Under the pieces are notes generated by a model. That model was not told where the DNA came from. It worked only from the letters and a program-made list of their open reading frames with translations, and made no database searches. 64,000 nt of DNA from Anas platyrhynchos. Lineage: Eukaryota > Chordata > Aves > Anseriformes > Anatidae. The stretch lies in assembly GCF_047663525.1 (NCBI RefSeq), contig NC_092601.1, positions 16,701,501 to 16,765,500 of the forward strand, given 5' to 3'. This document shows positions 35,301 to 57,855 of this stretch, in pieces (positions within the stretch are counted from its first letter, which is position 1; each line of letters opens with the position of its first letter). A program made the translations under genes and the position numbers.

Positions 35301-38300
35301 AAGCCAGGCTTGGGGATGCCCACGAAAGCACAGTGGCCCTGAGTGCACAGGGAACCACAACCCCTCTGTGCCCTGGTTATCTGCTCGTGCCCTGAGCTGT
35401 TACACTCAAAAATCAGCCCCATTTAGCAGGGGTGAAAGCCTCAGACCCCACAGCCTGCAGCAGGGTGGGAGCCCCCCAGCACAGACCCCATCCCACACCC
35501 GCATCGCAGGGCGCTGGCCTCAGCCTGCTGCCTTACCATGGTGATCCCCAGACTCCAGACATCCGACTTCACGTTGTAGCCCTTCTGGTTCAGCTCAGGA
35601 TTTATTCTTTCTGGCTGTAAGAGCAAAATGGAAGATATTACGACTCTGTCTCGTTTTCCCAGTGCAAACCACACGCAGCAGAGCTCTGGCTCCAAAACCC
35701 AGGCTGGGTGGATTCCCCTGGGTCACGTCCCCACGAAGGCAGGGCTTGAGGTTAAATCTATGAGCACCGATGAAAGCCACGTCTTGTTCCACACAAACCC
35801 CACAAATGCTCCCCTCCAGCTCCTGAGCGTGACTCCTACCCCAGGAGCACAAGCTACCCACACACACCACGGATGGCAGTGGGAAATTCACACTGACTTG
35901 AGAGCAAGGAATGAAATGACCCTGCCAAGAAAAGCCTCAGCATTTTCTAACCAAGAAGAGCAGCCCGTCCAACCACCACAACCAGCACCAGCCAGGCTTT
36001 CACCCTTCTGGGAAGGGAAGGTGGCAAAGGGAGAGCCTGCTGCAGGATTAACACAAACAGGAAGGTTTACAGGGAGGGTAATCCCTTCCTTGGAGGATCC
36101 TGCTGCATCAGGAAGCCCAGAGCGCTCCGTAATGGTTTATATCTCAGGACAGAGGGGAACACAGACTGATTTTTAAGAGCAGCCTCTTTGAGCCGAGGCT
36201 GGACGGCTCCCCACTTACAGCCATGTACGGTTTGCAGCCGGCATCCATGGTCTTTGCGACTGAATCCACCAAGTAGCCGCTGATCCCAAAATCACACATC
36301 TTCACGTGTCCCTCCTTGTTGATGAGCACGTTGGAAGGTTTCACGTCTAAAAGAGAGAGAACACGAGAGAGCAGATGGGGCCTCTGCAGAGGTAGCGCAG
36401 AGCCTGGGACAACACAGGGAGAGAAGGGACCAGGGAATGGAGACAAAACCCCACGATGCTTTTATCAAAGTAAATGTTCACAGGCAGGCCCATAACCCTG
36501 CCCTCCAGGCAGAGCAGGCCTGGAGATCAAAAGATCCTTACACAGATGAAATAAAATGCTGAGGAGCTAATACCCTGCTCCTTAGGGGGCATTTATACAC
36601 CCAGCACAGCCTTGAAAGTTCAACCCCTATCAAGTTCTCAGGACAGCTTGTCTCATGCTCATCATGAGCTGTCCACAAGGAGCTACATGAAGATGAAGAA
36701 CAGGGCCTGGGTGTTATGATTGTGTTACGATTCCCATCCATGATTTGCAAGGTCTCCTTCAGCTCTCACCTTGCCAGAACTACTCAGCCAGGAAGGGTAT
36801 GGGATTTTGTCCCCAAGAGCTGCCTGCAACGCATCTCTGTGCTCGGAGAGGGCCAGAGATGTCCACACAAGTACAGGCAGTGAGGAAGTCGGTCATTATA
36901 TTCAACCTTTCATCCAGAAAGGATGAAGAAAACAACATCATGCAAGGAGACGCATGAAAAACACATCTCAGGAACAGGCCTTGGGCATCCAGGTCTGCCC
37001 ACCACATTCCCAAGTGCCACCAAACACCCCTGCAGGGGACCCTGAGGCACAATCCATGTAATTTATAAGGTTAGCACTCCAACCACACCACACGAATCCC
37101 AGCCAGCACCTACCTCTATGGATTACGGACAGCTTACTGTGCAGATGCTCCAGAGCCCGTACAATCTGGTGACAAACAGAGCAGGAGAGAACTGTTAGAC
37201 ACACGCAGCACCAGCATTTCACTGTGAACACACCACCCATTTCTAAACGCTGTGTGTCTGAGCAGAGACCTCCAACAGGCTGCATTCAACCCCCGTGAGT
37301 GCAAAACCCAGCACAGAGTTACACGTGAGGGGTGCCATGCATCACTGCAAGGCCTGGGGGGAGCACAAAACCACGTATGAACCCAAAAGGCACTCACAGA
37401 CACGGCCATTTTCCCCAAAATGTCTTCAGGGATGGTTTTCTTCTTCTCTAGTACTTTCTTGTAGAATTTATCTAGGGAGGTGTCCATGAGCTCCATGCAG
37501 ATCCACACGTCGCCCTGCAGATAAAAGAGAAAGCAGCTGAGTAGGAATTCCCTAGAAAACCCCAGGAGCTGAAGGGAGTGGTGGGGACAGACAAACAGTC
37601 CCTGCCCCTTCCACCTGGGACAGACTGAGCTCCCCAGGCACCAGCACGCTGCCTCCACACCAGGCACGATGGGCACAGACGTTCAGGTACCACCAAAAGT
37701 GCCTGCAACAGCCTCCCTAGGAGGGACTCCCTGAAATCCAGCTCAACCAAGGACAACGTGGGGACAAAAGGGACCTGCTGCACGCTGCCTGGAGGAGGCA
37801 GGAGTTCAATTTTGCTGCATCTCAAAGAGACCAGCTTGGCTAAAGAAAGCCAAGGTGGCTTGAGACAGTTTTGTGCCTTTGGAGATCTCGCCCGGCCCCA
37901 AGGTGCTGTGCAGCCCAGCAGCTCCCCACCAGCCCAGTACCTCTCGGAAGAGGGCTCCGTAGAAGGTGACGGTGTAGAAGCAGTCGACCGTCCTCATGGA
38001 GATATCCAAGTCCATCAACAGCCTCTTCTGCTCCTGCGTGTTCACAGTCGCTCGAATCCTCTGAGACAAACATATAACAAAGAGAAAAACAGGGGTTTAA
38101 TGAAGGTGGAGTTTTGCAGCCAGTAGCACCCTCAGGAGATGCCCAGATTCCCTCTCCCAGGCAGCTCCTTAAGGGATGACACCACCTAAGCCCAGGGCTC
38201 CATACTTGGATTTCAAAACCTGCTTTGAAGGAGCCGCACCGAGCTGCACAGGGACACCGGAGGCTGCCAAAATCAGCATCCCTCTAACCTCCCGCACCTC

Positions 38301-40568
38301 TCTGCCCCCAGCAGAGCCTCTCTGCTGCCCTGGAGCTGCACGTCCCAACCTCCAGCCCTCTGGCAGGCAGCTGGGCTCACCTTCACGGCCATGATGGTGC
38401 CGCTCTGCGCGTGCCGGACTTTCTCCACCACTCCGTAAGCCCCACGGCCCAGCTCCGAAATCGTCACCAGGTCATCAGCTTCCACCTCAAAGTTCTACAG
38501 GGAGAGAAGTAAAAAAAAAAAAAGAAATCAGACATGGGTATGCTCATCACCAAAGGCAAAATTCCAAGCTTGCATCTCTTCTATGCAGAGCGCTCCCAAA
38601 CGATGGTGCCTACAGGATTCCAGCAGCTCTAGGCACCAGGCTCGGAGGAGATGGATGCGTTTTTCACTCTGTTGAGCCCCAAACTCACCAGGGCTCACTG
38701 AATTCTCCCTCTGAAGCTAGAGATCAGGAGTTTCATCCTTTCAGCCAGGGCACACTATTTCTGTGGTGAACAACCCGCAGGGTTTCAGCAGCTCCCCTGC
38801 CAGCACGGGCAGCTATTGGGATTCAGGATTGGCACCAGATCCCAGTGCCCAGCGGGGCATCACTGCCTGCCCCCGTGTGACCACAAGCACACCCACGTGC
38901 CCGAGAGCACCCTGCTTGTGCAAAGCTGCTCTTAGACAGGGTGGCACACACCACAACCCAATTCCCAGCATTGGGCAGCTCAGGTTGTGCCTGCTTTCAG
39001 CACCTCGCCCCATCATCATAGCCAGCAAGGCACAGCATGAGCTAGCACCAAGAAAAGAGCTCAGGCAGTGCAGTGACATGAACTTCATTTCCAGCTGGAA
39101 AAAGACAAACCCCCAGTGTTCAGGCAGCAGGCAGCGAGCGAGGCTGTGCGCAACCCCCAGACAAGTTTCCCTAACCACGCGTTACCCTGTAATTGCCTGC
39201 GCCGCTGGGCAGGGCATAAACTGCTCGAGTGAGCCACGGGCTATTTTGGGAGGCTGCATTCATCGCTCCTAATAAGTTACAGACCTCCTTTCAACCAGGA
39301 GGAACTTCAGCCAGCCTGCGAGTCTTCCTCCGGTCCCGGGGAAGAAAAATAATACCAGGATGCCCAAGTGACCCAGCAGCCACAAAGGGTGGGAAAAGCG
39401 CACGCCACGTCGGAAACACCGCCCGCGAGCTACACCCCGGGCAGAAAGGAGGCAGAAAACGCTGCTGGGGGGCCAAAATGGGAGCTGGGGCTGCCGGGCT
39501 GGTGGCTAGCCAGCTCCCCCGCCACGCTGGCCACGGGGCGGCCGGCAGCAAGCAGCATTTATGCGAGCCAGATGTGGCTGGCAGGCGGCCGAGGCAGGGA
39601 GCAGGAGAGGTCTGGGGTTGAGCTCAGCGGTGAGATATGCGCTGCCTGGCACGGGAAGGTGCCAGCTCTGTCCCGGGCAGGACGGTGGGTACAGGGATGT
39701 GGGGACCCTACAATCTCCCCCCAGTATCCCGCTGGCCTGGGCAGAGGCATGGTACAGGCTCACTGCTCCTGCAGCAGCCTCCAGGAAGGATCTCGTGGTG
39801 CTTTTCAGGACACGCGTTGTGCAGTTGTTCCAGGTTATTGTTGTGGGCTTTTTTTTTCCTGGCATTTACCCACAGAAGCTGGCAGTTCCCAACACACTCC
39901 AGGAACCAGGACGGCCCTGCCCAGGGGCAGAGGCGATGCTCCAACACCATCAGCATCCCCCTTACAGCATCCCTCACCCCCTGCCCTGCAGAGACGCAGG
40001 ACACCACCTGCACAGATCAGATGGACCTGAGCTCATCCTCCACCCCATCACCCAAACCTTCCTCCATCCTACATCGTGTCACTCCAGTGCCCAGATCAGA
40101 CCCCTCCTGCAAACACCAGAGCAGGCAGAGCACAGCTGCTGAATCCCTTGGAGAAAGGCACGGCAGGGACAGCAGCCAGCACGGAGAGCTGTCCCCACGC
40201 TGCACCACGCTCCCAGCGCACACGCTGTGCCCAGGCTGCCACACGGAGCCTCTCTCCCCGAGCTATTAATACACAACAGCTAGAAAACAACAAGGGCTGT
40301 GGGGCTGTGCCCTGGATCTAACCCAAGCTGCCTCCTCAATCCCTTTCCCCTCTGTCCCAGCTCTCCCCAAACCCTAAAGCCTTGCACTGATGGTGCCCAC
40401 GGAGCGAGCTGCTCAGCCTGGGAGGGAAGCAGCAAGGCGCAGGGCTGCTCAAGGCACCACCCCGAAATTTTTAGCTCACTCACAAACAGCCTTCTGCAGC
40501 CCCAGGAGAGCCCGTAACAAGAGGATGAAATAAAAGAGCAGCAGTGGCTGTTTCTAGCAGCTCTTTCT

Positions 40569-40600
<32 letters not shown>

Positions 40601-43600
40601 TAAGATCAGGTCTCTCAAATTGCAAGAAGCAAAAAGAAACCGCGCTAGCACGTACCTTATCTCCGATGGTGATGAACGTCCTGGAGTCCAGGTTCCTCGG
40701 GGGCCTGCGAGGAAAAAGAGAGAGAAAGTCAGAGGAAAGCACAGCTCCGTGCTCCCCATTCTGCAGGGCCAGGTTTTGTGTTCCTTCCAGCACTTTCATC
40801 CCCTGCTTTCCACCATGCCTTGTTGTTACAGGCTCAGATCAGCCCCCTCCAAACGCTCACAAACGCTTTCATCGTGCAAACACCACCCACAAAGCATTTG
40901 CTAAACGCAGCCAGCGAGAACCCCAGGCAGCCAGCGAGGTGAGGCATGCATCGAACCAGCAGGCTTTGAAACCATCCCCGCTCGGGATGCGAGCCCACGG
41001 AACCCCGACCGATCCCACGAGCTGTTCCCGTGGCACAGCGGCTCGGCTGTCATGTTTTGACAGGCAGGTGTTGTAACAGGACAGCCACGTCGCCCGAAAC
41101 ACACGCCTAGGGAACAACAGGTAATTCCTCAGCAGTGAGTCATTTGTGTACACTCCACGGCCTGTTCCAGGCAGCCTGGCACGCGGAGCAGCCAGCATTT
41201 CACAGGGTCACGCTTTGCACAACAGCACGCTGGCAAAAATAATAAAAAAAAAAAAGTCTTCCCTTACGGCTTTTTCCCCCCCATCGTTGCCTGCTTCCCA
41301 CTACTGGTAGCAGGGTGCTTTTGGAGCAGATTTTAGCCTTTTGTCCCTCGTGCTTCGCTTCCGTGCTTTCCCCAGCTGTGAGCTTGTCGGATTGGAAATT
41401 GAGCAATTTGTTTTAGCCTCCTGTTTAGCTCCCGTCAGAGCCATGCAGCGAGCTCCAGCTTCAAGGAAGTGCTCGGGCTCATGAAAAAAGCCTTGCACTG
41501 AGCAAATATTTGCATTGCACCTCGAGAAGTGCAGAGAAAAGGGATCGCAGGCACCTGGCAGCAGCCTCTACCGGAGTGCTCCAGGCATGCAAGCACCCTG
41601 CAGGCTCCAGGCGGACACCTTCGCCAGGGGAAATTCAGAGAGATGAAGCCACAAGGGAAGGAGGTGGCTGCTGCGTGCATGCCAGGCCGCACGGCACTAA
41701 CGGGGGACTTCCCCAGCTCCCCAGCTCACAGATCTGCCTTATCTGGGCTTTTAGGGAGTGTAATTTCCCCTCTGAGGATTTCACTGCTCTCCCAGAGCTG
41801 CCGAGGGTCTCTGGAAAGGGCTCCTGGTACAAGCAGGGCTGAGCGGCGGAGGCGCAGCCCGTGGTGTTTGGGAAGAGCATCACAGAGCAGGAATTTCAGC
41901 TGCCTGCTTTTCGTCAAACCCCACTTACGTTGTGTTGGCAACGGGCTGCTTGATGGGGACACATGTTATCCTCAGCTCCCGCTTCTTCTTGCTTTTCACT
42001 GGAAGAGAAGACGCACACGTGAGCAACTGGCATTTTTCTTTCTCTGCCTTCAAGCATCCTCCTACCCACAGGCCCCCGGCCCGGGGGTGCACAGAAACCC
42101 TCTTCCTGGCCTCACACCTTGCACTGCTCCTCAGCCACCCCAAAAGCGCCTGTTAACCCCCTGTGGCCATTAAGGGTTCCTCCTCTTTGGGGATTTTAAT
42201 TGCAGGTGTTTAGGGGATGGGCTGAAGCTGCTGTTCCTGCTGGGCACTCACCTGGTTTGTGCGGCTCCAAGGATCCCTTGGAATCTGGAAGAGAGCAGAG
42301 AGACACGGGGTCAGTTTTGGTGCTCCAGAGCAGCAGGCACAAAGCACGCACCCCTCACGGCCCCGGGTACCATCCGAAAAACACGCCAGGAGGACAGAGG
42401 GGTGCTGGCACCCGGCCCCATCCCGGCTTGACCAGCCACAAGAGGTCCCCACGCCACCAGCCGTGCACAGGGCCCTGACCCGAGCCCTGCTGCCCCAGCT
42501 CCTGTGCTCCCCGCCAGGCCAGTTTGGGATGCACAAACCCATTTCTCAGGGTGGTCACAGCCCCGCAGAGCCTGCTGCATATGGGATGGGATGGGACAGA
42601 TCCATCACGGCCACAGAAGCAGGCAGGGAAGTGGCCAGGCCTTCTCCGCTCCACACCTACAGCAGGTTGGAGGCCACCAGACCACAAGCAAGCCGAGCAG
42701 TAACTAACCCCCACCCCAAATGGGGACACCCCCACGTGTCACCAAGGGAAAATAGCACAAAACCAGGCAGGAGCTGGCTGCCTTTGTGCTGCCAGACACA
42801 AATCAAGGCCTGGTCTGCATGGGCTGAGAGCTGGGAGAAGGCCAGGCCTGTCAGGAGCAGCCCTCAGGATGCTCTCCTGCCCAGCTCCAAACAGCACAAG
42901 GAGATGGGTCTGAAATGAGAATTGAGCCCAAAATAGGATGGCCAGAGCCCTGCTTTGCTGCCCTGATCCCCTGCAGGGACAAGGGGCCTGGGGAGCTGCG
43001 TGAGAAGCAGCCCCACGAGCTGGCCTCCGAGCACGGTGTGAGCTTGTGGCCGGCTCCTTGTGGCCTCGTGCAGGCTCCCTGCCATGAGGAACGGCTCCTG
43101 GGACAAAGTCCAGCGCTTCCAACGCTGCTGGGAAAGGGAGGGGAGAGGCGAGGAGCTGGGAGCTGGGCAGGAAGGAGGGGAGATGTTCCTGGATGCATCC
43201 TGCCCTGCTGGGGGGGCACCACGGGTGGGCAGCTTCAGCCTGGCTGCTCCACACCAAACCCATCCTGCTGGGCTGGAAATGGGTCCCGGAAAGCTGACCC
43301 TGTCCTGGCAGTTGTGGGGTTTGATCACTGGTTCACAAACCTGCGAGGTTTCCTTTCCCAACCCCGCACCCGGCCGGGCTGGCAGAGGGAGCTATAAATA
43401 TCCCCGTGCACCCACTGAGGACACTGCAAAAATACCTGGTTGAGCAACGCCGGGAGCAAACACAGAACGGAGCCAAAGGAAAGCTGACATCCCCGTCTTC
43501 AGGCACCGCCTTCCCTCCCTGCAGCCAGCCCCAGAGCCAAAACCCGGGGGCTGCAGCATCCTCCTGCAGCCAGGGGGTGGGAGAGCCCAGGGGGCACACG

Positions 43601-46600
43601 CTCCCATCCCACCCAGCGTGCTGCATTTAGCACGTGGCTCAGGGATGCAGGCAGCAATCCAGGGATGCTGAGCTGCTGCACACCCACCCGGCCAACCCTG
43701 CACCTCCTGCTCAGCCAAAAAAAAAAAGAAAAAACCAGGACAGGGTGAACCAAACGCCTGCAATCCCATGACAGCCCCCCCAGCCACCTTCTGCCTGGCA
43801 GAGGGCGCAGCCACCAGCCAGAGCTTTGCACGAAGCCCTGAAACAACCCCCATACACACACACACACACATCCCATCCCGGCTGGTATTTTGCTTAATCT
43901 GTTTGCTCTCCTTCTCCCCAATTGCCATAGTAACCCCAGCAGGAGCACAATGCTCCCTCTGTGCTGCCCGCTCCCCCGAGCGGCGCTGACTCACGCGGGG
44001 TCACCAACGCAGCGGCCCCGAGGCTGCGGTGTCAGCCCTGCCGGAGCCCCAGGAGCTGCCAGGAGGCGTCTTGGGGTCGGGAATCGATGCAGAGCCTCGT
44101 GCCCGTAGCGGGATTTGAGAGCACGGTTGGAAGGGTCAGCACGGGATGGGGAGATCCCCGCTGCAAAGTCCCCGTGCGCCGTGCTGGAAAATCACATCGC
44201 GTCTCCATGCATCGATTGTACCCCGTGAGACAGAATTAGGTTTGCCTCTTCCTGCTCTCCCCGTGTTTGCCACGGGGCCAAACTCCCCAGCATCCTGCAA
44301 ACCTCCTCCAAAAAGCGCTGGCAGCATTTCTCCTGCTGCTCGCAGCCACAGAAGCAGCACGGGTCCGGCCGTGCAGGGGTGGAGCGGGCAGGAGCCACTT
44401 CCTCTTGAGCACAGCCCAGAAATAATTAAATTTCTTTTACAAATGAATAAAATAAATAATAAGAAAGAGGCAAACGGTGCTGTCCTGAAGCTCTGCACAC
44501 CCACAGCCTGCTCAGGGCAGGCAGATGGTGGCCGTGGGGGACCAGAGCCCAGCACCGCTGTCCCCAGCACGCTGCCCAGTGTCACCCCCAAAGCTGGTGG
44601 CAGCCCCAGAGCAGGACACCCGGTGCCAGAGGAACAAACAGGCGGTGGGACGAGCACGGCACGACCTTGCAATTCAATCCCTTCTGCCCTGAGCAGGTCC
44701 CGGGGCAGCATCTGCTGTCAGCCCCCGCAGGCGGCTGCTCTCAGCTCCCTGGCACCTGCCAGGCTCTCAGCAGCTCGCCCCCAAATTTGGGACCCCACGG
44801 GAGAGCTGCTGGGGACAGGGGGACGCTTTCTGTCACCTGCAAGTCCTGGGGATGCGCCAGCTTGTACCAGGGCACGGGGCTCTTGCAAGAGTCACCCACT
44901 GCTCGCGGTGACCTCAGATCGCTTCCACAGCAGCCAAATGGGGACGGGGCAACCTGGGGGCACGGCCCCATTAATCCCAGCCCCGTCACCCCCAGCCCAA
45001 GCCGAAAGCATGTCCAAAAAGCCGAAAGCACGGGTCACACAGCACTGTGCATGCACCCGGGCTGGGGAAAATGAGCTGACCGAAGTTCCTAGCGCAGCCG
45101 AGCTCGTAGCCCACGTGATGCCGCAGGCACGTAACTGCATCCTTTATGCTAAGAAAGGCACCATTTCCTCCTAAAGAAAGAAAAAAAAAGGCTTTTTTTC
45201 CCCCTCCCCTCATGCCACAGCCCGCACCAGCTAAGACCGGACACATTCGTTTCCTGGAACTGCTCAATTCAACGCTGAAATCCTCCTCCTCCTCCTCCCC
45301 AACCTCAGCCCCGTCCCGCTGCACCTCTCCCCGGGAGGTTTGGCCTTCCCACTCCGCCGGCGTGGGTGGAGAGAAGCGAACAGGACAACGTAAAGAACTG
45401 CAAATAAAGCTATTTGCCTGAGCTGACCTTTGAAATCAAACCTCTCCGAGCCTCCCCTGCGCTCCAGGTGAAGTCCTGGAACATGGACCTGCAGGGTGCA
45501 GGGGCTGCTGCAGGGGTTGCACGGTGGGGTTAGTGCTGGGGAAAGAGTTTGGGGGCCCCCAAATTCCCCTCGACCTGCAAATAGGAGTCAAACACTGCTG
45601 GGGAAGACGTTTTGGGGAATCGAGGGGCACCCTCGACCTGCAGACGGGAGCCAAACGCTGCAGAAAAGGCGCAGGGCTGCAGGGTGGGTCCCAGCCTGGC
45701 TGCAAAGGAAGGGCCAAAAGAAAAAAAAAAAAAAAAAAGGATCCCCAAAAGGAAATAAAAAATAAAAAATACAGGCAGGGTGCAACAAAGCAGAGAGGGG
45801 AATTTGGCCGCTTGGGTCACGGGAGTGGAAAAAGCTCCCTGTGTAAGCGGAAAAGCGGCGCTCAACCTGCCGAGAGCCATCACTCATCAGCCTGCAGAGG
45901 GGCTGCTGCAAGCCACCGCCGCCCTGCGCCCGGCACTTCTGCAAAAAGAGAAAGAGAAAAACCCGAGCGGGCTGGACGAGAAGCCCCCGCCGGCTGCAAC
46001 GGGTGTGCAAGGGCTGCTGGAAAGCCCTGGGAACACCACCAGAAGAGGGACAGGCTCCTTCCCGGAGCTCTGCTGGATTTCTGCTAAGATGCCAGCGCTC
46101 CAACCCCGTGCAAAACATGCAAGTTTCCAGAGCTTTAAAAATAGATCCCGAGCTGCACATGCAGAACCCCCCCTTCCCGAGCGAGCAGAGGGGAGAAAAA
46201 CTCCGTGGAGGGACCCCAAAAAAGTTCCACCGTCCCCCTTTTTGGCACCGCAAGCAGCCGTTTGGTCGCCCCCCCCTCCGGCACGTGCTTTGGAAATTGC
46301 AACACCTACCTTGCCTCTTGTCCATGGCTTCCCAGAAATGAAGAACAGAAACGGGCACGCCTGGCGGAAGGGAGGGATGGGGGAGCCGGAGGAGGGAGGG
46401 AAAAAAAACAGCCCGTGGGATCCGCTGCAGGGCCCTTCTGGTGAGCACCACGGCTTACCCTCGGTAGGGCTGCATGCTCGGAAGGTGCCAGCAGCCCCCT
46501 TTTTGGGGTCCCCGCTGCGTGCCGGGGGTGCGCGAGCCAGCGAGCGGCTGGGGAAGGCTGGGGGGGAAGGCGCCAGCAGCACCGCGTCCCCGCATGGGCA

Positions 46601-49600
46601 GCTGCTGAGGTTGGCCGGTCTCAGCTCGGGTTACACTTGAAAGCTCAACAGTTGTAGAAAAAAAAAAAAAAAAAAAATGCAGCGGGCGAAATAACCGCTG
46701 ACGTCAACAGGAAGCTGGGGGGGAGCCAGCGCCGGGAGCCATCGAGGCGCAGGGCTCCCGCGGCGCATCCCCCGGGGGACGCCTTTGCCGCTGGAGGGTT
46801 CGACCCTCGGAGCACAGCTCCCCCTCTGCCATCTCGATCCCACTCCCCAGGATAAAATCCCAACGGTGGGAGGCTCCCAAAGGTGCTGCCGTGGGCTGGG
46901 TGGGTTCCACGGGGGAGCAGCAGTGCTCGTGCCATCCTGAGCCCCCCACCGGTGCAGAGCTTTGCACGGTGATGGCTGCAGCTCCATGCAGGAGCACAAA
47001 ACACCAGGGTACAGGGGATGTAAGCGCTTGGGGGGGCTCAAACACACGGCCCCGAGCACCCACGCTCAGCCCTTTGGCACCCAGGGAGCGCCAGGCAGCA
47101 CGAGGTCGGATTTCTTGGCGCTGCAGGTGCCCGGCTAATTGCTTTGCCACTGACAACCATTCCCACAACAAATAGTGCAAAGCTTGTTCCATCACAATGC
47201 CGGCTCCCAGCTCGGCAGCTATTCCAGGGTGACAACTGAGACGGCATCTCCGCTGGCCAAGTCCAAGCTGCCACCCGGATTCTGCTGGGAAATAGCAAAG
47301 GAGGAGGACGGAGGCGTGGAAAAAATCACCCCCGGCTCCGCCACCACGTGCGAGAATCGTGGCCGAGCCTCGCTGCTCTCCCCTCTTCTGCCCGGGTGGG
47401 GTTTGGAGAAGCCAGCACCGACGTCCCTGACCAAATCCGAACAGGTTGCAGCTTTGTTTTCAGCTTCCCTGGCAGCCTGGAGGGCAGATGCTGCAGCAGC
47501 TCCTTCACCTTCCCCTAATTATAGCAAACATGCCTCCGCCGCGCGGGCTGCGCCGCCCCGCGCACGTTTGCAGGCAGAAAAGTCAGAGGTCGAGGTAAAG
47601 GCGCATACCGACCTAATGAGCGCCTCCGATTTTAAATAGTGTTTATACAAGCCCCAGAAGGACTGCGGAAGATATTTTCCTCGGCAGCATTTCCACTCCC
47701 CGGGTATGGTTTCAAGCCGAGCTCATCGGCGCAGAAGGGATGCTGGCACAAGAGCTGCCCCCCAGCCCTACAGCAGCGTCCCCGTCCCATACAGGGGATG
47801 CTCCAAGGATCCCTACAACCCCTCGTGGAGCCCATGCTGCCTCGGCACATCCCAAATGCTAATAAATGCCATTTTTTTTTTGAGCCAGACCCATCTTTTT
47901 GCAGGTCCTGGGGCCACCAGCACCACTGCTGCTGGGTTCTGAGCAGCCGAACCTCGTGCGCCGGGCAGCTGCCGCCGCTCCCTGCCAGGCTTCAATGAGG
48001 GGAAGAGCACGCCCTGAAAAACAGCAATGAGCTCAAGCAGCAGCCTGCCAGCACCAGGCCCTCTCCCCACCCTTCCCCTGCCCACCCGCGGCCTCTCCGA
48101 GGGCTGGATGAGGCCGGGGGCACCGGGGGGGGGATGCACCGGGCTGGCAGCGGGGACCCAGGACCCTGCAAAACCCCATGGGCAGGACCACAGCCCCGAT
48201 CCCAACCTGGAAGCTCTGTGACAGCTCTGCTTTTAAGCAAAACCTTGGAATAAAATCTAATAGGAAAGGGATCAGGGGCATCTTTCTGCTCCCATCACTC
48301 CAGCTGGGCAATGATGCCAAGAGCAATGCAAGGAGAGCACTGCGAGCGCCCAGTACCCCAAAACAGGGAAGGATTTGGGGACGGGGACACCAGCTGAAGC
48401 CACCACGGCGGTGACATCCCAGCTGCCAGCCCTGGGCTGCCAGGCACACCCCAGCTCCGTGCAGCAGCCAGATAACAGCCCGGCCAGCCCGCTTGCTCTG
48501 CTGCAGCTTCGGGAGGATGTCACCGCCCAGTTACGCTCCAGTTGGATTTTTAAGGTTACCTGCATTACCGTAACGGATGGGGGAAAGCAAAAAAACAGCC
48601 ACATTTCACTCTGTGCTTTGTTCCCTGATGTTCTGCAACAGGGGGGCTCTGCAGACAGGCTCCACGCTGGGAAACCCACAGGAGCAGAGCCCAGGCTGCC
48701 CTCGGGGAGCGTCGGAGCAGCGGCCAGCTGGCACGGCACCGTGGCGTTATCGGACACGCTGCCCCATGCCAAAAACTGCACAGCTGTGCAGCAGGACCTG
48801 GGCAAAAAACCTCTGCCCACCTCTTCGGAGCAGGCACGGGGCCGGGCAGAGCATCCTGCAGGGCTGCAGGCTCACATCCATCGCTCAGGATCGATTTTTT
48901 TCCCCCAAAAAAAGCAGTGGCAGAGGCTACACCTGCTCGGAGCTCGCCGTGCAGGCAACCACGAGCCACCTCCTGGAGCAGCACAGTGCTGGCGTGCTGC
49001 CACGAGACAAAGGGCTGGGAGCAACCCCAACCCCAGAGACTTCATGGGCAAGAGGAGAGGAAAAAGGAGATGGTGCTTCAAGAAAAGCCAGGAGGGAGAG
49101 GCGAAACTGCTGCCACCAGCTCTGCTCCTGCTCTGGTTCCTGAGCCCGTCCTACCCGGCTCGGTGCAATTTCAAGTACCTCCAGTTGGCCACAAAACCCT
49201 GTAAAGTTGGTAAAAGGGCAAAGTATTGCCTCTTTCTGCTTTTAATGCAGAGTCTCAATGACTAAAAATAAATAAATAGAAATAAAAATTACTTCTTTAG
49301 CTTCCTGCCATCCTCCCCCCAATTTATTTCGGGTGGGGAAAGAGGAACTTCATCCCGGCAAATGACACGGGTACCTGGGCTGAAAGTGGAATTTGTGGGG
49401 GGAAAAAGTAATAATTAATAATAATTAGGAAGTGCTCAATGTCTGCAGCTGCCTGCTCCGGGAGGGGGACAGAAGGAAAGGGAGCAGCGGGAGCGATGCC
49501 ACCCGCGGGGACTGCGGTTCACAGCTCCCCGCTGAGTCAGGCCCAGGTGCACCACGAGGGCTGTGAGCTGGCTGCAGGTGCTGCAAACTCAGCTCGGGGT

Positions 49601-52600
49601 CCGTGAGTCAGAACAGGTCTGTCTGTCCGTCTGTCACCACCAGCAGCTCGACGGAGACAGGGCTGGGAGCACCACAACACCCAGATTCGGCTCTCCGGTG
49701 CCCAAACCTCTCCGGTGCCCAAAACTGCGCTCACGTCTGAAGACGCACAGGGGATTTCTGCCTCACCACCCTCACCTGCTGCCTTTAACCACGTTTCTCC
49801 CCTGATTACATCCATGCATGCGCTTTTCCAAGCTGAGAGGGAGGAAAGGAGCAAATTGGGGTGCTGCAAAGAGGCAAAACCCACCCCGTGATGGGGGAAC
49901 TGGGTGAGATCCTCGGTCTTCGGCGAGGCGAGAGGGTGGAAACCGCCGCAGACAGCAGGACCCGCAGCCACCACCTCGCAGCCTCTGCCCCAGCCCTACG
50001 GACACCACCGGGGACAGACTGACGTCTGCATCCCAACCCATGTCCAGCTGCTGCCTGCGGCCAGCCCCAGCCGCTCAGCGGCTCAGGAAGTTAAGATTTT
50101 ATATTAAAAAAAAAGCGCAGCACGCTTGCTAAGCCCCACATTTTTGCAGAAGTCGCCCGCAACCATTTCTCCTTCGCTCCTCCAAACTCCCCCACTGCAA
50201 AGCATCGCCCCCGTGGGCTCTCGGCAGCTCCACACCACAAAAAAACCCTTCCACGTGCCCTGCACCCACAGGGCATCTCTGCCTGGTGCCCGGCTCGGGC
50301 AGCGTTTCCCCACCGCAGCCCCACGTGGCAGCCCCGGCGCAGGAAGGGCACAGCCTCGCTCGCCTGCTTCCGTTTCGCTGGGGTTTATTTATTTTTTTTT
50401 TTTGCTGTGCCCTCCTCGCCCCTTGCTCAGGAATCACTGCGAGGTTTTTGAGGCTGGGTGGAAATGAGCCCAGCAGGTTTTTGCTCTTGGAGCTGGTTTG
50501 AGACGTCCCGGGAAGGCAGCAGGCTCCGCAGAGGCTGTCCCGACACATCCGGCTCACGTCCCGGGGCAGGAGCAGGCAGTGACTCAGTGCCGCTCAGCCT
50601 GCAGCTCGCAGCTTTTCCTGGGGCACGCTGGAGGTTTCCAAGAATCATTTCCATTTACAAAACAACGAGAAAAAGAAAAAAGAAAAATCCCCTTTTAGCC
50701 CCAAAAGGGCAAGGCTCAAATCAGTGCTTTTTTTTGGGGGGAAAAGGTGGCGCGCTGCAGGGCAGAGCATGAAAAGGAGCAGAAAGGAGCTGGAAGGAGA
50801 GGTGCAAGAGGTGAAACCTGCTCGAGATAAGGGGAACGCACGCGCTTGGTGCCGGCCCCGTGGCTGCCGCTCGCGGCTTCCCCCGGCGAGCTGTGCCTGT
50901 AAAACCCCCACGGGGAAACCCACGATTACCGAAGGCGAAATTCTTTGGGGATCCAGAAATGAAGGGCGAAGCGTTGCAGCAGCCTGGAATGTACACGGAG
51001 AGATCTCACGGACGGGAGAGGTGCCGGAGGAAAAGCTGAGTGGCCCCCTGGTTCCTCAGCAAAGCTCATGCGAGGCTGATAAAGGACTTGGATTAAAATG
51101 CACCCGCAATTTCCAGAGGTGCCTCCTCCAGACACCACTTTGCTCGTTGCCCAGGCATCCTCCACCAAGCCAGGCAGTGGCAGGGTGAATTAATACCTGC
51201 AAAAAGCTTCTGGTGGGCAAGAAATCAGCCTCTGCAGAGCCCAGGAGGGCAACCCCAGCCGTCCACCAGCTCCTGCTGCTCACCATCAGCCCCCTGGTGC
51301 GCAGAGCTAAAGGTGCTCGAAGCCGAGCGACCGCAGGGATCGACCAAAAAACGCAGATAGAACAGGTTGCAGAGGCTTTTCTGGGTTTAAACACCGGGTT
51401 TTACAGCCAGGTGTGGAGCGTGGCTGGGTCTGCCACCTCGCTGCTCCTTTACCAGGTGCTCGGGAGGAGGCAGAGAGCAGCCCTGGCACCGTGTCCATTC
51501 ATTTTCACCCCAAGCTCAATTTGGCAGCATTTCAGGAGAGAAACCAAGCCGTCCGCGGCGGCAGGGGATTTTTAACTCTGCAGAGCAGCTTTCTTAAAAA
51601 GCCTCGCGGCCGAACACATCCGGCTCTTGCAGAAAGAGCCACGTCACTTTTGGGGACGAGCTGCACCGTGGGCAGGGGACAGCCCTCACCCGTCCGCTCC
51701 TTTCCAAGCAGGGCCAAGCCTCCCCTTCCCCAGCGCAGCAAGATCTCTGTCCTACAGCAGGGAATGCCTCCCCCACACACTATATTTGTTCTTTGCTACC
51801 TTTAATAGGGAAAAAAAACAGTGCTACTGAGCTGTGGGCAGCAGGAGGTGGCACCGGCTCGGGCTGCAGGTGCCTCCAGCTGCAAAGAGCAGGACGGGTG
51901 GCCGAGGCAGGGGGGCTTTCCTGCAAGATTTGGGCTAAGAGGGAATTTTTATGCACAGGACCGTGGTACCTAACCAATCTGCAAGCACAGGCACGCCAAA
52001 CCTTCCTAGATAATCCCATGTTCCCCTAAAGCAGGCTCCCTGCTTCCAGACCCGGCCGTGCTGGTTGCAAACCATTTTCCGAGCACACGTCCGCCCGCGG
52101 CCCCAGCAGGAAGCGGCGCCGGTGTCACAACCACCCCGGGGCAGAAGCACTCGGCTGTTGCCCTTGCCAAGCTCTCCCGACCTGCAAATGCAGCTGCAGC
52201 ACTTGGAGAAGGAAAAGGGGGCACAGCCCGAGCTGGAGAAGTGGTGCCCCCACCCAATTGCGCCCAACATTTCGCCCTCTCGCCGCTCAGCGCCTCTGGA
52301 GAGGCACCGGCAGGACCCAACGCCAGCTGCAGGTTTTGTTTGCTGGAAATCTGAGACCTCCGGCTGAACAAAAAGCAGTAATTAAAAAGCTTTACCTTTC
52401 CTAAAATACACCAAAATGTCCGGCACCACCACGGCAGGGGAGCTGCCCGCAGCCAGGGTCAAACCGTGCGGCTCCCGGCGCGGATGGATGCGGGACACAG
52501 GCACCAGGCTCAGCCCCACGCAGCGTTTTTGGGCACGTCAACCCCACCAAACCACAGCACAGGTTTAGCAGCCTCTGCTGGAAAGTGTTTGTACCAAAAA

Positions 52601-55600
52601 GAGGCTTCCTCCTTTCCAAAAGGAGTTTTTTTTTTGTTTTTTAATTATTTTTCGTGGCGCTGTAGGGGGCAGGAAGGGTGGATGCTCTGCAAACAATTTC
52701 TGGTTAAGTTTTGTCTCCTCCTCATCCTGCCTCCTCTCCCACTCGTGGGATGTTTTTAAAGGAAATTTATCCCTTAAAAAAAAATAAAAATGAGCATTTC
52801 ACTTGAGAGGATGCAAACCTGGCTTAGAGCACGGGACAGACCCCCCTTGGCAGTGACCCTGCTGCAGCCTGGAGGGGACCAACCCCCCCCCCAGCTCCTC
52901 CTTTTCCATGCTGAGAGCTCCCAAAGGAGCTGTGCTGGTGTTGTACCCACCTGTTTTGGGGACAGACACTCAGATGGGGATGAAAAGGCCATGGGGAGAT
53001 GCAGCATCTCCCAAGCTGGGAAAAAAAAGACCACGAATTTCCAGTTTCCATCATAAAAAATCCTCTCTGCTGTCTCAAAATCCCTGGCTAGGACTCGACC
53101 TGCACTGCAGAGTTTTGTCAGCAAGCAGCTGTGGGTAAATGGAGCTCCGTGCGCACCCACAAGCAGTCCTGAGTCACGTCCGTAAAACCCCAAAGTTTTT
53201 GTTGGGCGAGTAAAATTACCCCCAGACAACACAAGTTCCTCTCCCAGCTCTCCCCCCAGCGAGCGGCCCCGCCACCGTTAGCCCAGTGAAAGCAAGCCTC
53301 TGACAAAAAACCCCACGTCCTCGGCCCCAAAATCACCGGGACCCGACACCTGGGCACTAATGGAGAAGCCCCACAGTGCACGCACGGATTCTCTACAGCA
53401 GAAACCAGCTTTGGGGCCAGGTTTGTGCTCAAAGCAACCCCTGGCTCAGCCCCACACTGCAGCCAGGGCCTGGGGAACAAAAGCAGCGGGTGACAAGCAG
53501 GAGAGCAGCCTTTGGGGCTGCCAAAGCACAGCTCAATATTTATTTATCCTGTGTGATGTTCTACAGGTGCAAAGCAAAACCCTGGCTCTGTGGGTTCAGA
53601 GCTGAGAGCCCCCACACTGGCCATGCACCGAGGGCACCGGTCGCGCTGCCAGCCCCAAAAAAACACAACCAGGTGGTGGTGACGGGCAGCAGATCCCATC
53701 CAGGCACCTGCCAAACCCTCCTGGAGGAAAATCTCTTGGCTAAGGGGAAGGACGCGCTCTCAAAGGGTGCCCACGTGCCCCTCTCAGAGCTCACCAAATG
53801 GGCACAGCTCCACGCATAATTCCTTCCCATCCTGACACCAAGCTGGGAAAATGGAGCTGGACGGAGCGCTGGGGGCCTGAGGCAACCCGAAAATCTATCG
53901 ATAAACAGGCAACCAAAGATGCAAAATAAGATTTTGCATATTCGGGCAACCCTCAGGCTCGACGGCGCGCAGAACCAGCGAGCGAGGGTTTCCCACACTC
54001 ACACACACAGCCCTCACCCCGCGAGATAATTCGGATCAAGGCGGCAGCGGGAAGAGGAAGAAAGGCGAAATCCTTCCTGAGCTTCCCTAATCCCCGCCAG
54101 GTGTTTATCTCGGAAGCTATGTTTAGCACCGCGCGGGGAAAAAGGCTCCTGCCCGGCACCATTCCTATCCCCGCGTGTCACGGGTGGCCACGCGCATCCC
54201 CAAAAACTCCGGAGGCAGGAGACAGCCCCGTGACTAAGCCGAGGTGACGGCAGCCGAGTTTTTGCACGCATCGGTCACGGGCACGGCCAACCTGCGAGCC
54301 ACGAGGCAGCCGTCTCCATTCATTGCTCCCATCACCTCCAGCGGGAGCACGAAGCCACCCGAATCTCCCGGGATAAATCCTAGGCTACATCCAGCCGGAG
54401 AGAGTAAAGCCACCTGAATTTCCCAAGTTAAATTTCAGCAGGAGTCTAAAGCCACCCCGAATCACCCAGGTTAAATTCTGGGCTACATCCAGCAGCAGCC
54501 CAAAGCCACCTAAATTTCCCCGAGTTAAATTCCAAGTTTCAGCCAGCGGGAGCCCGAAGCCACTTGAATCTCCTGCGTTAAATTTTGGGCTACATCCAGC
54601 AGGAGCCCAAAAACCACCTGATTTTTTTCCATATATTAAATTCTGGGCTGCATCCAGCAGGACCCCAAAGCCACCTGAGTTTCCCAGGATAAATTTCAAG
54701 CTGCAGCTCGCTCTCAGCCTACCAACACCCCCAAAAGAGCAACACACAACCAACAAACCCTCCCCGGGAGCCAGCACGTTTCAGGCAAAACCCAAACCGA
54801 GCCAAATCTCAGCAGCCAGCAGGGCACGAGGAGGAGAACACACGCACAACACCACGACCCCACGAGCAAAGCAGCCCCCCAAAAACCCTCCCCGAGCTCA
54901 CCTCGGCTCTCCATCCAGGCAGACAGACCCCAGGTAAGGTGTGGGCACGTTGGGGCTCCCCGCAGCCTTTTTATGAACCCCGTTGCAGCCCCGCAGCCGG
55001 GGCAGGCGGGCGGGAGGCATGCGCCCGTACCCGTGAGTCAGCAGCTCCGCTCGGCGCACCGTAAATCGCCGCTGATTCACACCCCGCTTACACAGCAAAC
55101 AGGAAACTCAGGTCCACATTCCCTCCGTTTAAGACACGGAGCGTTCAGAGGAGGAGGAAAAAAAAAAAAAAAAAAAAAAAAAAAAGCCCCCCCCCCCCAA
55201 AAAAAAATCCAAAGTCACGCCGAGGTGCGCTCATCTGCTCACATGGCTCCTGACTTCGAGTTTCCAGCGCATCACCGCTGCCGAGAGGAAAGCCCCGCGA
55301 CTTCCACGCCGGCGGCACGAGCTCCACGGACGGGTCCCTGCTGCCCTCGGGGACGCGGTGGCACCGCCGGGTCCCATGGGTGGCACCGTCACCCACGGGT
55401 GGCACCCACGGACACAGCCCCCCTGCATGGGGGGCTCCCCAGGGACCCCCTTGGGTTGCCCCCAGCCACGCACAGCGCTCACCGAACCACCCCAACCAGC
55501 GTTGAACGAGAGGCGATTTGGGGCCGTTTCGTCCAGAATAGGGTCAGCTTGTTGCTTTTTTTTTTTTTTGCTATTTCCCAGCTCTACCAAACTCACTTTT

Positions 55601-56216
55601 TTTTTTTTTAATTTATCGCCGTGCTGCACACACAGAGCCATTCACCCCTTACCTCCCCCCCCCATCCCATTATGACCCCACGACCCCCTAACCCCCTTTT
55701 TTGGGGTTTGGGGATTTTTTTTTTCCCCAGCTGGACCAAAATCACCCTTTTTTTAAAAAAAAATTATCAACATGCTGCAAGCACAGAACCCTTCACCTTT
55801 TAACCCCCTGGCTGCCCCCTTACGACCCCACGACCCCTTAATACCCCTTTTTAGGGTTTGGGGATTTTCTTTTTCCTAGCTGGACCAAAATCACCATTTT
55901 TTTCCCAAAAAAAATATCAACGTGCTGCACACCCACGGCGCTTCACCAATGGTCCCCACGGTCCTCCCCTACACCCCAAACCCCCCCTACACCCCCCTAC
56001 ACCCCAAAACCCCCCTAACACCCCTTTTACACCTTATTTACACCCCTTTACACCCCCTGACCCCACGCCCCCCAGCCGGGCTGTGCCCGCAAAACGGCGT
56101 GGGCTGCCTACAGCCCGGGAACGGAGGGAAAGAGAAGGGGGTCCCGGGGTCCCTATATCGGTCCTGGGGTCCCCAGATCCCCTCCTGTCCCCGCTCCTAC
56201 CTCTGGGCACGGACAT
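32264..56216 (-). CDS. MAP2K3: MAP2K3 (MKK3), dual-specificity MAP kinase kinase 3, complete coding region
   Basis: Cytoplasmic/nuclear kinase that activates p38 MAP kinases by phosphorylating the Thr and Tyr of their TGY loop (family knowledge). The thirteen coding segments, 5' to 3', are 56216-56201, 42284-42252, 41998-41929, 40704-40656, 38494-38381, 38060-37941, 37514-37398, 37165-37114, 36346-36219, 35614-35537, 33721-33582, 32832-32787 and 32347-32264. All junctions are GT-AG and phases agree, giving 1047 nt and 348 residues; human MKK3b has 347. Visible motifs: basic docking (D) motif near residues 18-27, Gly-rich loop GRGAYG at 72-77, catalytic lysine in MAVK at 94, HRDVK at 189-193, DFG at 209-211, activation-loop Ser219 and Thr223 (SVAKT), and a C-terminal LRKNPAERMNYLELMEHPFF docking region. 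The spellings AEADDL-type linker, ISELGRG and HAQSGT favour MAP2K3 over its paralogue MAP2K6. The start used is the distal CpG-island ATG; two alternative 5' exons are listed separately. NATD1 lies head-to-head upstream. Confidence 0.96.
32787..32832 (-). CDS. MAP2K3: MAP2K3 exon, LRKNPAERMNYLELM
   Basis: Forty-six nt, residues 306-321, with the conserved kinase helix H-I arginine context KNPAER. Forms part of the DVD docking region for upstream MAP3Ks (family knowledge). Confidence 0.96.
33582..33721 (-). CDS. MAP2K3: MAP2K3 exon, C-lobe (IELAILRFPYESWGTPFQQ...)
   Basis: One hundred and forty nt, residues 260-305 plus two bases of Cys306. Reads through VVEEPSPQLPADHFSKEFVDFTAQ, matching the MKK3/MKK6 C-lobe. 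Acceptor ccccag, donor gtgagtc. Confidence 0.96.
35537..35614 (-). CDS. MAP2K3: MAP2K3 exon, PERINPELNQ...SLGITM
   Basis: Twenty-six codons, residues 234-259, holding the APE-equivalent PER and the helix F motif SDVWSLGI. Acceptor cttacag, donor gtaagg. Confidence 0.97.
36219..36346 (-). CDS. MAP2K3: MAP2K3 exon, catalytic and activation loops
   Basis: Residues 191-233. Contains DVKPSN, DFG and the activation-loop segment SVAKT, whose Ser219 and Thr223 are the sites phosphorylated by upstream MAP3Ks. All key residues are intact. Confidence 0.97.
37114..37165 (-). CDS. MAP2K3: MAP2K3 exon, IVRALEHLHSKLSVIHR
   Basis: Fifty-two nt, residues 174-190. The codon for the catalytic aspartate of HRD is split across the next intron (phase 1). 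Donor gtaggtg, acceptor caccag. Confidence 0.97.
37398..37514 (-). CDS. MAP2K3: MAP2K3 exon, hinge region (GDVWICMELMD...)
   Basis: Thirty-nine codons, residues 135-173. Includes the hinge MELMDTSLDKFY and the stretch VLEKKKTIPEDILGKM, which is more lysine-rich than human MKK3 (VLDKNMTIPEDILGEI). Confidence 0.97.
37941..38060 (-). CDS. MAP2K3: MAP2K3 exon, N-lobe (RIRATVN...GALFRE)
   Basis: Forty codons, residues 95-134, covering helix alpha-C and strands 4-5 of the kinase N-lobe. RTVDCFYTVTFYGALFRE matches MKK3. Acceptor tctcag, donor gtactg. Confidence 0.97.
38381..38494 (-). CDS. MAP2K3: MAP2K3 exon, Gly-rich loop and catalytic lysine
   Basis: Thirty-eight codons, residues 57-94. Contains the ATP-binding loop GRGAYG and ends with the lysine of MAVK that pairs with the alpha-C glutamate. 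ISELGRG and HAQSGT are MAP2K3-type rather than MAP2K6-type spellings. Confidence 0.97.
40565..40601. repeat. T-rich tract in MAP2K3 intron
   Basis: Two long T runs broken by a single C. On the gene strand this is an A-rich tract starting about 55 bases after the exon ending at 40656. Confidence 0.95.
40656..40704 (-). CDS. MAP2K3: MAP2K3 exon, PPRNLDSRTFITIGDK
   Basis: Forty-nine nt, residues 41-56, identical to the human linker except for the last residue. Acceptor cctcgcag, donor gtacgt. A long pyrimidine/T-rich tract lies about 55 bases into the following intron. Confidence 0.96.
41929..41998 (-). CDS. MAP2K3: MAP2K3 D-motif exon
   Basis: Encodes VKSKKKRELRITCVPIKQ and the start of the linker (residues 17-40). 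The basic cluster followed by L-x-I is the p38 docking D-motif and matches KSKRKKDLRISC of human MKK3. Acceptor cttccag, donor gtaagtg. Confidence 0.93.
42252..42284 (-). CDS. MAP2K3: MAP2K3 33-nt microexon (DSKGSLEPHKP)
   Basis: Acceptor ctcttccag and donor gtgagtg flank 33 bases, symmetric phase 1-1, so the exon can be skipped without a frame change (337 residues). It encodes residues 6-16, just before the p38 docking motif. It has no obvious counterpart in the human MKK3b N-terminus as I know it, beyond similar length and polarity. Confidence 0.75.
43851..43870. repeat. (CA)n microsatellite
   Basis: CATA followed by eight CA units, in the MAP2K3 intron. Confidence 0.9.
43921..43934 (+). 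promoter_or_regulatory. Near-perfect RFX X-box
   Basis: ATTGCCATAGTAAC matches the X-box GTNRCCATRGYAAC at all but the first base. It lies in the MAP2K3 intron between the 33-nt microexon and the 46.3-kb exon. Confidence 0.45.
45560..45675. repeat. Two-copy degenerate tandem repeat of about 64 bp
   Basis: A block starting CCCTCGACCTGCA and followed by GGGAGCCAAACGCTGC or a close variant occurs near 45567 and 45631. It lies in the large MAP2K3 5' intron. Confidence 0.6.
45720..45738. repeat. Poly-A tract
   Basis: Uninterrupted A run inside the MAP2K3 5' intron. No LINE or SINE body is recognisable beside it. Confidence 0.9.
46310..46360 (-). CDS. MAP2K3: Candidate MAP2K3 51-nt cassette exon or alternative first exon (MDKRQ)
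   Basis: The donor at 46310/46309 reads GGCAAG|gtaggt (phase 1). Two readings fit. As a first exon, translation starts at the ATG at 46325-46323 in strong context (GCCATGG), giving MDKRQ-D. As an internal exon, a pyrimidine-rich acceptor (cctcccttccgccag) at 46361-46363 defines a 51-nt, phase 1-1 exon with no stop in frame, which would insert GVPVSVLHFWEAMDKRQ between MSVPR and DSKGS. A consensus CRE 370 bases upstream supports a promoter; the good acceptor supports a cassette. Confidence 0.4.
46658..46678. repeat. Poly-A tract (poly-T on the MAP2K3 strand)
   Basis: Uninterrupted run of about 21 A, twenty bases below the CRE. Confidence 0.9.
46699..46706. promoter_or_regulatory. Consensus cAMP response element (CRE)
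   Basis: Perfect palindrome TGACGTCA, the binding site of CREB/ATF family proteins. It lies 374 bases upstream of the MDKRQ ATG on the MAP2K3 strand, next to a poly-T tract. Confidence 0.55.
54335..54715. repeat. 54-57-bp minisatellite, seven copies
   Basis: The block AAGCCACC(T/C)GAAT and its flanks recur near 54351, 54407, 54449, 54503, 54557, 54611 and 54668, mostly 54-57 bases apart; one unit is shortened to 42. The minus-strand open frame across it is a by-product of a unit length close to 18 codons. Confidence 0.85.
54902..54914 (-). CDS. MAP2K3: Candidate alternative MAP2K3 first exon (exon 1b, MESR)
   Basis: Thirteen-nt coding stub ATG-GAG-AGC-CGA-G followed by the donor gtgagctcgg, in phase 1. 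It would splice in frame to the 33-nt microexon (MESR-DSKG...) or to the D-motif exon. It begins MES, as human MKK3b does, though three residues are weak evidence. The ATG has G at -3 and G at +4. A TATA-like box lies 53 bases upstream and an AP-1 site about 120 bases upstream. Short ATG-plus-donor combinations arise by chance in an intron this long, so the promoter context carries most of the weight. Confidence 0.4.
54915..55080 (-). promoter_or_regulatory. MAP2K3: Candidate TATA/AP-1 alternative promoter of MAP2K3
   Basis: On the minus strand an ATAAAAAG TATA-like box sits at 54974-54967, which predicts initiation near 54,940 and a leader of about 30 nt before the MESR ATG. Upstream is TGCTGACTCA (plus TGAGTCAGCA at 55034-55043), an AP-1 site with MARE-like extension. 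This is the usual layout of a stimulus-inducible promoter. It is wedged between two tandem-repeat arrays and next to a poly-A/poly-C tract. Confidence 0.4.
55158..55207. repeat. A28-G-C12-A9 homopolymer block
   Basis: Runs of 28 A, one G, 12 C and 9 A directly follow one another, just upstream of the AP-1 site of the candidate MAP2K3 alternative promoter. Confidence 0.95.
55555..55950. repeat. 149-bp tandem repeat, about 2.6 copies
   Basis: The phrase GCTGGACCAAA and its flanks recur at 55581, 55730 and 55879, exactly 149 bases apart. Each copy also carries a GTGCTGCA block about 44 bases later. Copies are diverged by small changes and homopolymer length. It lies in MAP2K3 intron 1, between the distal and TATA-type promoters. 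Confidence 0.8.
55966..56070 (-). repeat. G-run tract in MAP2K3 intron 1 (G-quadruplex potential)
   Basis: On the MAP2K3 coding strand this region has at least seven runs of four or more G (plus C-runs at 55974-55977, 55981-55987, 55992-55997, 56002-56005, 56010-56015, 56021-56024 and 56043-56046) with short loops. It begins about 130 bases into the intron after the distal first exon. Confidence 0.75.
56201..56216 (-). CDS. MAP2K3: MAP2K3 distal first coding exon (exon 1a)
   Basis: Encodes MSVPR plus the first base of the next codon. The ATG follows GCCAGCC, with G at -3, and the donor reads AGAG|gtagga (phase 1). It lies in a CpG island with CCAAT and GC boxes and has no upstream ATG for about 180 bases, so it is my preferred main start. 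Joined to the 33-nt microexon it yields MSVPR-DSKGSLEPHKP. Confidence 0.7.
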
Positions 56217-56480
56217 GGCTGGCGACGGCCCCGCAGCGCCCGGGCAGAGCGCGGCGCCCGGCGGAGTCCGGCCCAGCGAGGCGGGCGGCGGAGGAAAAAC
56301 AGCGAAAGGCGGGGCCCGGCGCCGGCCGGCGGAGCCCCGCCCACTCGCCTGCTGAAACCCCGTTCCGATTGGTTGACAGCGGGGAGGGGGCGGGGTTATC
56401 TCACCGCCCACCCTCGCGGGGGGAGTTTTATGGTTCACGAGCACGGTGGGCGGGGAGCGGTGACGCGGGCGGGGGGGGGG
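56217..56480 (-). promoter_or_regulatory. MAP2K3: MAP2K3 distal CpG-island promoter and 5' UTR
   Basis: Very CpG-dense segment directly upstream of the distal ATG. On the gene's strand it has a CCAAT box (ATTGG on plus at 56368-56372) and several GC boxes (about 56307-56316, 56335-56344 and 56386-56395). There is no TATA box. Broad initiation around 56.25-56.33 kb would fit, but the transcription start cannot be fixed from sequence. Confidence 0.7.
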
Positions 56481-57855
56481 AAGAACGTGGCTGCCCGGGG
56501 GTGCGGTGACTCACGGCATCCCCGCGGCCTCTCCGCGCGTTTTGCCCCTTTCCACGTCTCCCCCTTCCCCGCACGACCCCCCCCGTGCTCGGGGCTGAGC
56601 ACACGCCACCCCCACGGCAAGGGGAAGCAGGGCAAGCCACCCGCCTGGGCTCCCCAAAAATCCTGCTTGCCCCCCCCCAGGGCTCCCTGCTGGGGCAGGA
56701 GGGGTGCAGGGATGCAGGGATGCAGGACTCAGCCCGGCCAGGAGCTGAAAAAAAACCACAGACACACCCCATGAAGCTGCCACCATGCTGGGGGGGTGCC
56801 CTGCTGCAGGACATTCAGCAGCACCCCCAGCCTTGCACCCACACCCTGGCACCCTTGCTCCATCCTCGGCGGCGCGGGGCACCCAGGGCTCTCCCCAAGC
56901 CTTGGAAGGGGCTCCCAAGGCTCTCCCCAACCCCCCGTCGCACCCCGGAGGAGAATCACCCACATATCTGCAGCCCTGATGCATCAGGCTCACCTGCCTG
57001 CACGTGCCTCCTGCCCCGGGGCGATGCAAGGGTCCCCTCCCCATGCTGCAGCCCCATGGGCACCTGGCCCAAGCGTGGGGACCCTCAATGGTGATGCCAC
57101 CGTGTCCTCCGTGGGTCCTGCTCGGGGTCACCCATGTCCCACCAGCCAGCCATGAGTTGTCCCAGCAGCGTCCCCACCATCCAGAGCCTGCTGTGAGTGC
57201 AATTTTTTGGAGAAAACACCTAGAATATCTCAGGGGGGTACAAGGGAGGGGTGGTAGTCGAGCACAGTCACTCATGGTTCTGATCTGGGCTTTGCAGCAT
57301 GTTTTGGAGAGGTTCAAGAGCTGGAAAACCTGCCTGGAATACAGAAAAGAAGGGGCTGGGGGCTGCGTCTACAGGGGGCCAGATGCCTCGGCTGGACCTT
57401 TAACCCAGCAGCCGCAGCGTAACAGCCAGCAGCTGGAAATGGAAGCAAGAAAAGTTCAAATGAGAAATAAATTACAGGTTTTTAACAGCGAGCAATTATC
57501 TCCCCGAGAGAGAGAGAGACGTAGCAGATTCCCCGCCTTTCAAGTCTTCCAACACACGCGAGGAGCCTTCCTAAAAAAAAAAAAAAACAAAAAAACTCGA
57601 CCGCAGGGTTATTAGCGGTGACGCACAAGGGCTGCCGGCTGCCCGTGTCATCCCCCAGGCCGGGCGAGTAGGCGGTGGGATCGGGATGGACTTTTCTGGC
57701 TTTTTGCCATCCCGATTTCTGAATCAGCAGCGGGGCTGATAGCTCCGGAGTGGCTGATGCGAGTGGGTTTGGGCTCGGTGGCTGCCAGCGTTATTTCTCC
57801 TGGCTGGAGCCATGCACGGGGCAGAGCAGGGGCAATCGGCCCAGGTTATGTCAGC

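Follow-up and report, generated by a model that had tools for sequence, protein, structure and literature searches.

A bird MAP2K3 gene with a very likely main first coding exon and one candidate alternative start

Introduction

How many first coding exons does the MAP2K3 gene of a bird possess, and would a choice between them matter to the kinase? A preliminary description of the locus had proposed three short ATG-bearing stubs, here numbered 1 (MSVPR), 2 (MESR) and 3 (MDKRQ), as alternative first exons, each with a good donor and its own type of promoter, and had suggested that the choice between them may tune docking to p38 or the response to a stimulus. The precedent that it invoked, alternative 5' ends of human MAP2K3, is indeed published: in the part of that report considered here, the human gene has a primary and alternative promoters with their leading exons, and methylation there correlates with the level of MKK3 protein (PMC7805211). 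Alternative leading exons of MAP2K3 are therefore a known kind of arrangement, and the human case resembles the proposal for the bird in that the same gene has more than one promoter, each coupled to a separate leading exon before the exons in common; the human evidence consists of methylation and protein level in tumours. MAP2K3 is absent from the main text of a study of inflammation and alternative first exons (PMC8260223), and the portions considered of three further papers (PMC4248312, PMC4290593 and PMC4961362) mention MAP2K3 without an alternative promoter or first exon for it.

We propose that the locus is mostly an ordinary MAP2K3 gene with one fair candidate alternative start. Stub 1 would be the main first exon, stub 2 a candidate only, and stub 3 a product of chance or part of a cassette exon. 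Taken as a whole, this account seems to us reasonably probable; it covers the use of stub 1 alone as well as that of stubs 1 and 2 together, so our estimates for the rival explanations overlap with it, and most of the weight is shared by these two readings.

A complete MAP2K3 gene in the window

The window, by which we mean the whole 64-kb stretch of DNA analysed, sits on contig C15 of the genome searched (1.26 Gb, 42 contigs), the size and chromosomal layout of which would suit a bird. Splice assembly from stub 1 yields a complete MAP2K3 (MKK3) gene on the minus strand, with 13 coding exons running from 56216 to 32264 and a product of 348 amino acids, the kinase domain of which is complete (PF00069, E=5.1e-57) and the best solved relative of which is MKK6 (3vn9, E=1.4e-178). 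In tblastn, the exons of the window match pieces of a human MAP2K3 query at between 52%, for the D-motif exon, and 100%, and a separate MAP2K6 locus on contig C19, encoding KKRNPGLKIPKEAFEQPQTSS, identifies the gene of the window as MAP2K3 and not MAP2K6. Stub 1 is followed by a 33-nt exon (42252..42284, minus strand; phase 1-1, DSKGSLEPHKP; acceptor 8.68 bits, donor CAG/gtgagt 8.51 bits) and by an exon (41929..41998, minus strand, thus read from 41998 to 41929; KSKKKRELRITC) that carries the N-terminal D-motif KSKKKRELRI. The remaining ten coding exons (32264..40704, minus strand) encode the kinase domain, with the stop at the 32264 end. Scored with a textbook matrix, the assembled gene has 12 donors between -1.02 and 8.51 bits; its 12 acceptors range from 3.01 to 12.46. 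By far the weakest donor is that of exon 6 at 37941 (GAG/gtactg, -1.02 bits). An Rfam scan of the window returned no match, so that a special RNA structure is unsupported.

The ATGs and donors of the three stubs lie where they had been placed (56216-56201, 54914-54902 and 46325-46310), all the donors are phase-1 GT sites, and all three stubs join the 33-nt exon, or the D-motif exon directly, in frame and with open spliced translations. Joining the shared next exon requires phase 1 of every first exon of MAP2K3, which makes the phase match a condition of use and, taken alone, weak evidence; the same pattern of an ATG stub ending in phase 1 is shared by a poly-G stub of intron 1, a probable decoy encoding MGGG (55653..55665, minus strand; ATGGGGGGGGGAG/gtaagg). 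The description of the donors as good suits stub 2 (GAG/gtgagc, 6.19 bits) and stub 3 (AAG/gtaggt, 5.90 bits) and less so stub 1 (GAG/gtagga, 3.41 bits), the weakest of the three, and the decoy has a better donor (6.39 bits) than either extra stub. An origin in a repeat or transposon was considered and rejected for stubs 2 and 3 and for the 33-nt exon: in a DNA search of the own genome, with simple repeats and very common words skipped, each of the three regions matched itself alone, as a single copy.

Stub 1 as the probable main first coding exon

Stub 1 (56201..56216, minus strand; ATGTCCGTGCCCAGAG) encodes MSVPR + G, ends in phase 1 and splices to the full MAP2K3. The promoter region ahead of it (56217..56513, minus strand) contains six GC boxes, a CCAAT at 56372, a CATAAAA at 56432 and an AP-1 site, TGAGTCA, at 56513. 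The tile that includes the stub (56000-56499) has the most CpG among the 32 tiles scanned (51 per 500 bp, with GC 0.71 and CpG o/e 0.80), its o/e ratio being exceeded in tiles 54000 and 55000, both at 0.84. CCAAT is bound by NF-Y. At the human MKK3 promoter NF-Y is known to act, according to the part considered of PMC4761708. The 100 nt ending at stub 1 folded no better than shuffles (z 0.65).

The MAP2K6 locus on contig C19 offers a comparison within the same genome. At C19:2668377, 20.3 kb upstream of the D-motif exon, lies a 16-nt phase-1 stub, ATGTCTCAGGCGAGAG/gtaagg, which encodes MSQAR + G and is one of 12 phase-1 stubs scoring at least 3.4 bits in the 116 kb upstream of that exon. We took it as the first exon of MAP2K6 because it has the right phase and fits MSQSKG, the start of human MAP2K6. 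With stub 1 it shares its length of 16 nt, its phase-1 end and the junction to a D-motif exon. Of their nucleotides 11/16 agree, a degree of agreement also attained by 1/62 other ATG-N12-GGT windows in the control loci; the letter match by itself thus proves little, and the argument from the paralogue rests on length, phase and place. MAP2K6 has no known counterpart of the 33-nt exon of MAP2K3, the comparison covering its stub and D-motif exons.

Together, the gene model, the MAP2K6 stub, the CpG-richest tile and the GC boxes and CCAAT make it very likely that stub 1 is the ordinary main first coding exon of MAP2K3, and it would be transcribed from a GC-rich CpG promoter as the main start of the gene. 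We infer that stub 1 was inherited from before the separation of MAP2K3 and MAP2K6.

Stub 2 and the chance expectation for intron 1

Stub 2 (54902..54914, minus strand) encodes MESR + G and ends in phase 1. The candidate core promoter directly upstream (54915..55040, minus strand) comprises an AP-1 site, TGACTCA, at 55040, a CATAAAA at 54975 and an initiator-like CCACACC at 54944, which lie 126, 61 and 30 nt upstream of the ATG respectively, and the interval between the box and the stub is free of any ATG. We counted composites of a TATA-like box 25-160 nt upstream, no ATG after it and a stub of any phase with a donor of at least 5.0 bits. Only 1 occurs in 512 kb of controls, which corresponds to 0.027 expected in the 13.9 kb of intron 1 and P=0.027 for one. 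The tile just upstream of stub 2 (55000-55499) is CpG-rich, with an o/e of 0.84 and 41 CpG. AP-1 sites are common: the 64-kb window contains 11, including one ahead of stub 1, and the AP-1 site at stub 2 therefore adds little; the presence of both CATAAAA (56432) and AP-1 (56513) ahead of stub 1 means that motifs of the inducible type are not special to stub 2. Because the composite is rare in the controls and the upstream tile is CpG-rich, stub 2 is plausible as an alternative first exon, a fair candidate and no more.

How often would such stubs arise by chance? We counted phase-1 stubs of 2-10 codons with a donor of at least 5.89 bits, a threshold set at the candidates' own score, and intron 1 (13.9 kb) contains three: stub 2, stub 3 and the poly-G stub. 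The controls of 512 kb, all taken on both strands, were nine 10-kb stretches of C15, the 116 kb leading up to the D-motif exon of MAP2K6, and the remainder of the window, and the one presumed real MAP2K6 exon was removed from their counts. They yielded 10 stubs, hence 0.27 expected in intron 1, with P(>=3)=0.003 and, for the case without the poly-G stub, P(>=2)=0.03; at 5.0 bits they yielded 22, with P(>=3)=0.02 and P(>=2)=0.12. Almost identical values resulted when only the remainder of the window served as control: 0.003 and 0.02 for at least three stubs and 0.03 and 0.11 for at least two. Intron 1 has a GC content of 0.59 and the rest of the window 0.56, and it is a weakness of the C15 (0.44) and MAP2K6 (0.47) controls that they are GC-poorer. 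The antisense strand of intron 1, 13.9 kb outside the 512 kb, held 0 stubs. In 200 dinucleotide shuffles of intron 1 the mean was 0.15 stubs at 5.9 bits, a threshold that drops stub 3 (approximately 5.898), and 2 stubs were reached in 3/200. The excess of stubs over chance is mild and the evidence from it weak, and it was judged after the fact, with tests framed once the candidates had been seen.

To the alternative that stub 1 alone is used, stubs 2 and 3 being chance ATG-donor pairs in a GC-rich intron, we give a little less than an even chance. The P=0.12 for two stubs at 5.0 bits agrees with it, as does the MGGG decoy, with its better donor in the same intron, while the TATA, initiator and AP-1 set ahead of stub 2 speaks against it. 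On that reading the gene would be an ordinary one, and what is gained is an improved gene model.

Should stub 2 be used as well, it would bring a first exon of its own under a second promoter of the TATA type, perhaps responsive to AP-1, and its use would change the timing of kinase production and make a small change at the N-terminus ahead of the same docking motif; the likeliest effect would be on the time and place of kinase production. A further step, which we consider rather unlikely, would be a stress-inducible MAP2K3 expressed from this second promoter of TATA/AP-1 type, 1.3 kb into intron 1, which would form a positive loop in which the AP-1 output of stress kinases raises an upstream kinase of p38; if the 33-nt exon were skipped, the stub residues would be set against the docking motif. 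Were stub 2 in use, birds would have, for a central stress kinase, an inducible promoter alongside the standing one, and this would bear on the priming of p38 responses.

Stub 3 and the cassette reading

Stub 3 (46310..46325, minus strand) encodes MDKRQ + G, ends in phase 1 and has the best ATG context of the three stubs, GAAGCCATGG, by the Kozak rule. A perfect CRE lies at 46706, 381 nt upstream of its ATG, and is the only one in the window, versus 1 in 210 kb of control loci. Between the CRE and the stub are ATGs at 46595 and 46475, which share a single frame that stops at 46455, and a motif scan found no TATA-like box upstream of stub 3. The claim of three promoter types is therefore borne out for stub 1, with its GC boxes and CpG, and for stub 2, with its TATA-like box; stub 3 shows only the distant CRE.

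In our judgement it is unlikely that every one of the three stubs functions as an alternative first exon under a promoter of its own. The three stubs of at least 5.89 bits versus 0.27 expected would favour it, as would the TATA box and AP-1 site ahead of stub 2 and the rare perfect CRE ahead of stub 3, but the poly-G stub is one of those three and passes the same filter, and stub 3 is without a TATA-like box, its CRE being 381 nt off with two ATGs between.

Stub 3 might also form the 3' end of a cassette exon of 51 nt (46310..46360, minus strand), which would be inserted after stub 1 and before the 33-nt exon and would contribute GVPVSVLHFWEAMDKRQ. This exon is open, phase 1-1 and divisible by three in length, with a donor of 5.90 bits and an acceptor of 6.64 bits that falls within the 3.01-12.46 of the gene's 12 acceptors. 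The cassette reading seems to us quite improbable: among the 50 sites of intron 1 that reach 3 bits, 13 outscore the acceptor at 46360, and an open cassette with stronger sites lies at 49832-49776, so that such pairs arise by chance. The stretch in question (49776-49832) is 57 nt long, open and phase 1-1, and with an acceptor of 7.76 bits and a donor of 7.31 bits it is stronger than either extra stub.

Stub 3 most likely represents either a chance pairing of ATG and donor or a portion of a cassette exon, and the simplest of the readings as first exon, cassette or chance is the last. Its ATG context speaks in its favour, and the surplus of stubs in intron 1 leaves room for it to be real. The earlier proposal of three alternative first exons thus holds for stub 1 as the MAP2K3 start, on the gene model and the MAP2K6 paralogue, and is plausible for stub 2, while stub 3 is inseparable from chance or a cassette exon.

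Docking motif and the 33-nt exon

Would the choice of stub tune docking to p38, as had been suggested? With the 33-nt exon included, KSKKKRELRI is identical in every product and is separated from the stub by 12 residues. For this form we rejected docking tuning through the stubs on these grounds, and any direct influence of stub choice on docking to p38 is unlikely as long as the 33-nt exon is retained. With that exon skipped, stub and motif would be adjacent, giving MSVPR-VKSKKKRELRI versus MESR-VKSKKKRELRI, and this is the one arrangement in which stub choice could touch docking. Human MKK3 also has N-terminal isoforms, the short form starting at a Met after the D-motif; like the bird products these are N-terminal variants of MAP2K3, but unlike the short human form all three bird products keep the D-motif.

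The 33-nt exon itself, flanked by stub 1 and the D-motif exon, is symmetric and has strong splice sites. It may be optional, and may be a more interesting switch than the stubs. Both the 16-nt first coding exon and the 33-nt second exon are easily missed by annotation. The product without the 33-nt exon would be MSVPRVKSKKKRELRI, a layout near that of MAP2K6, MSQARGKKRNPGLKI.
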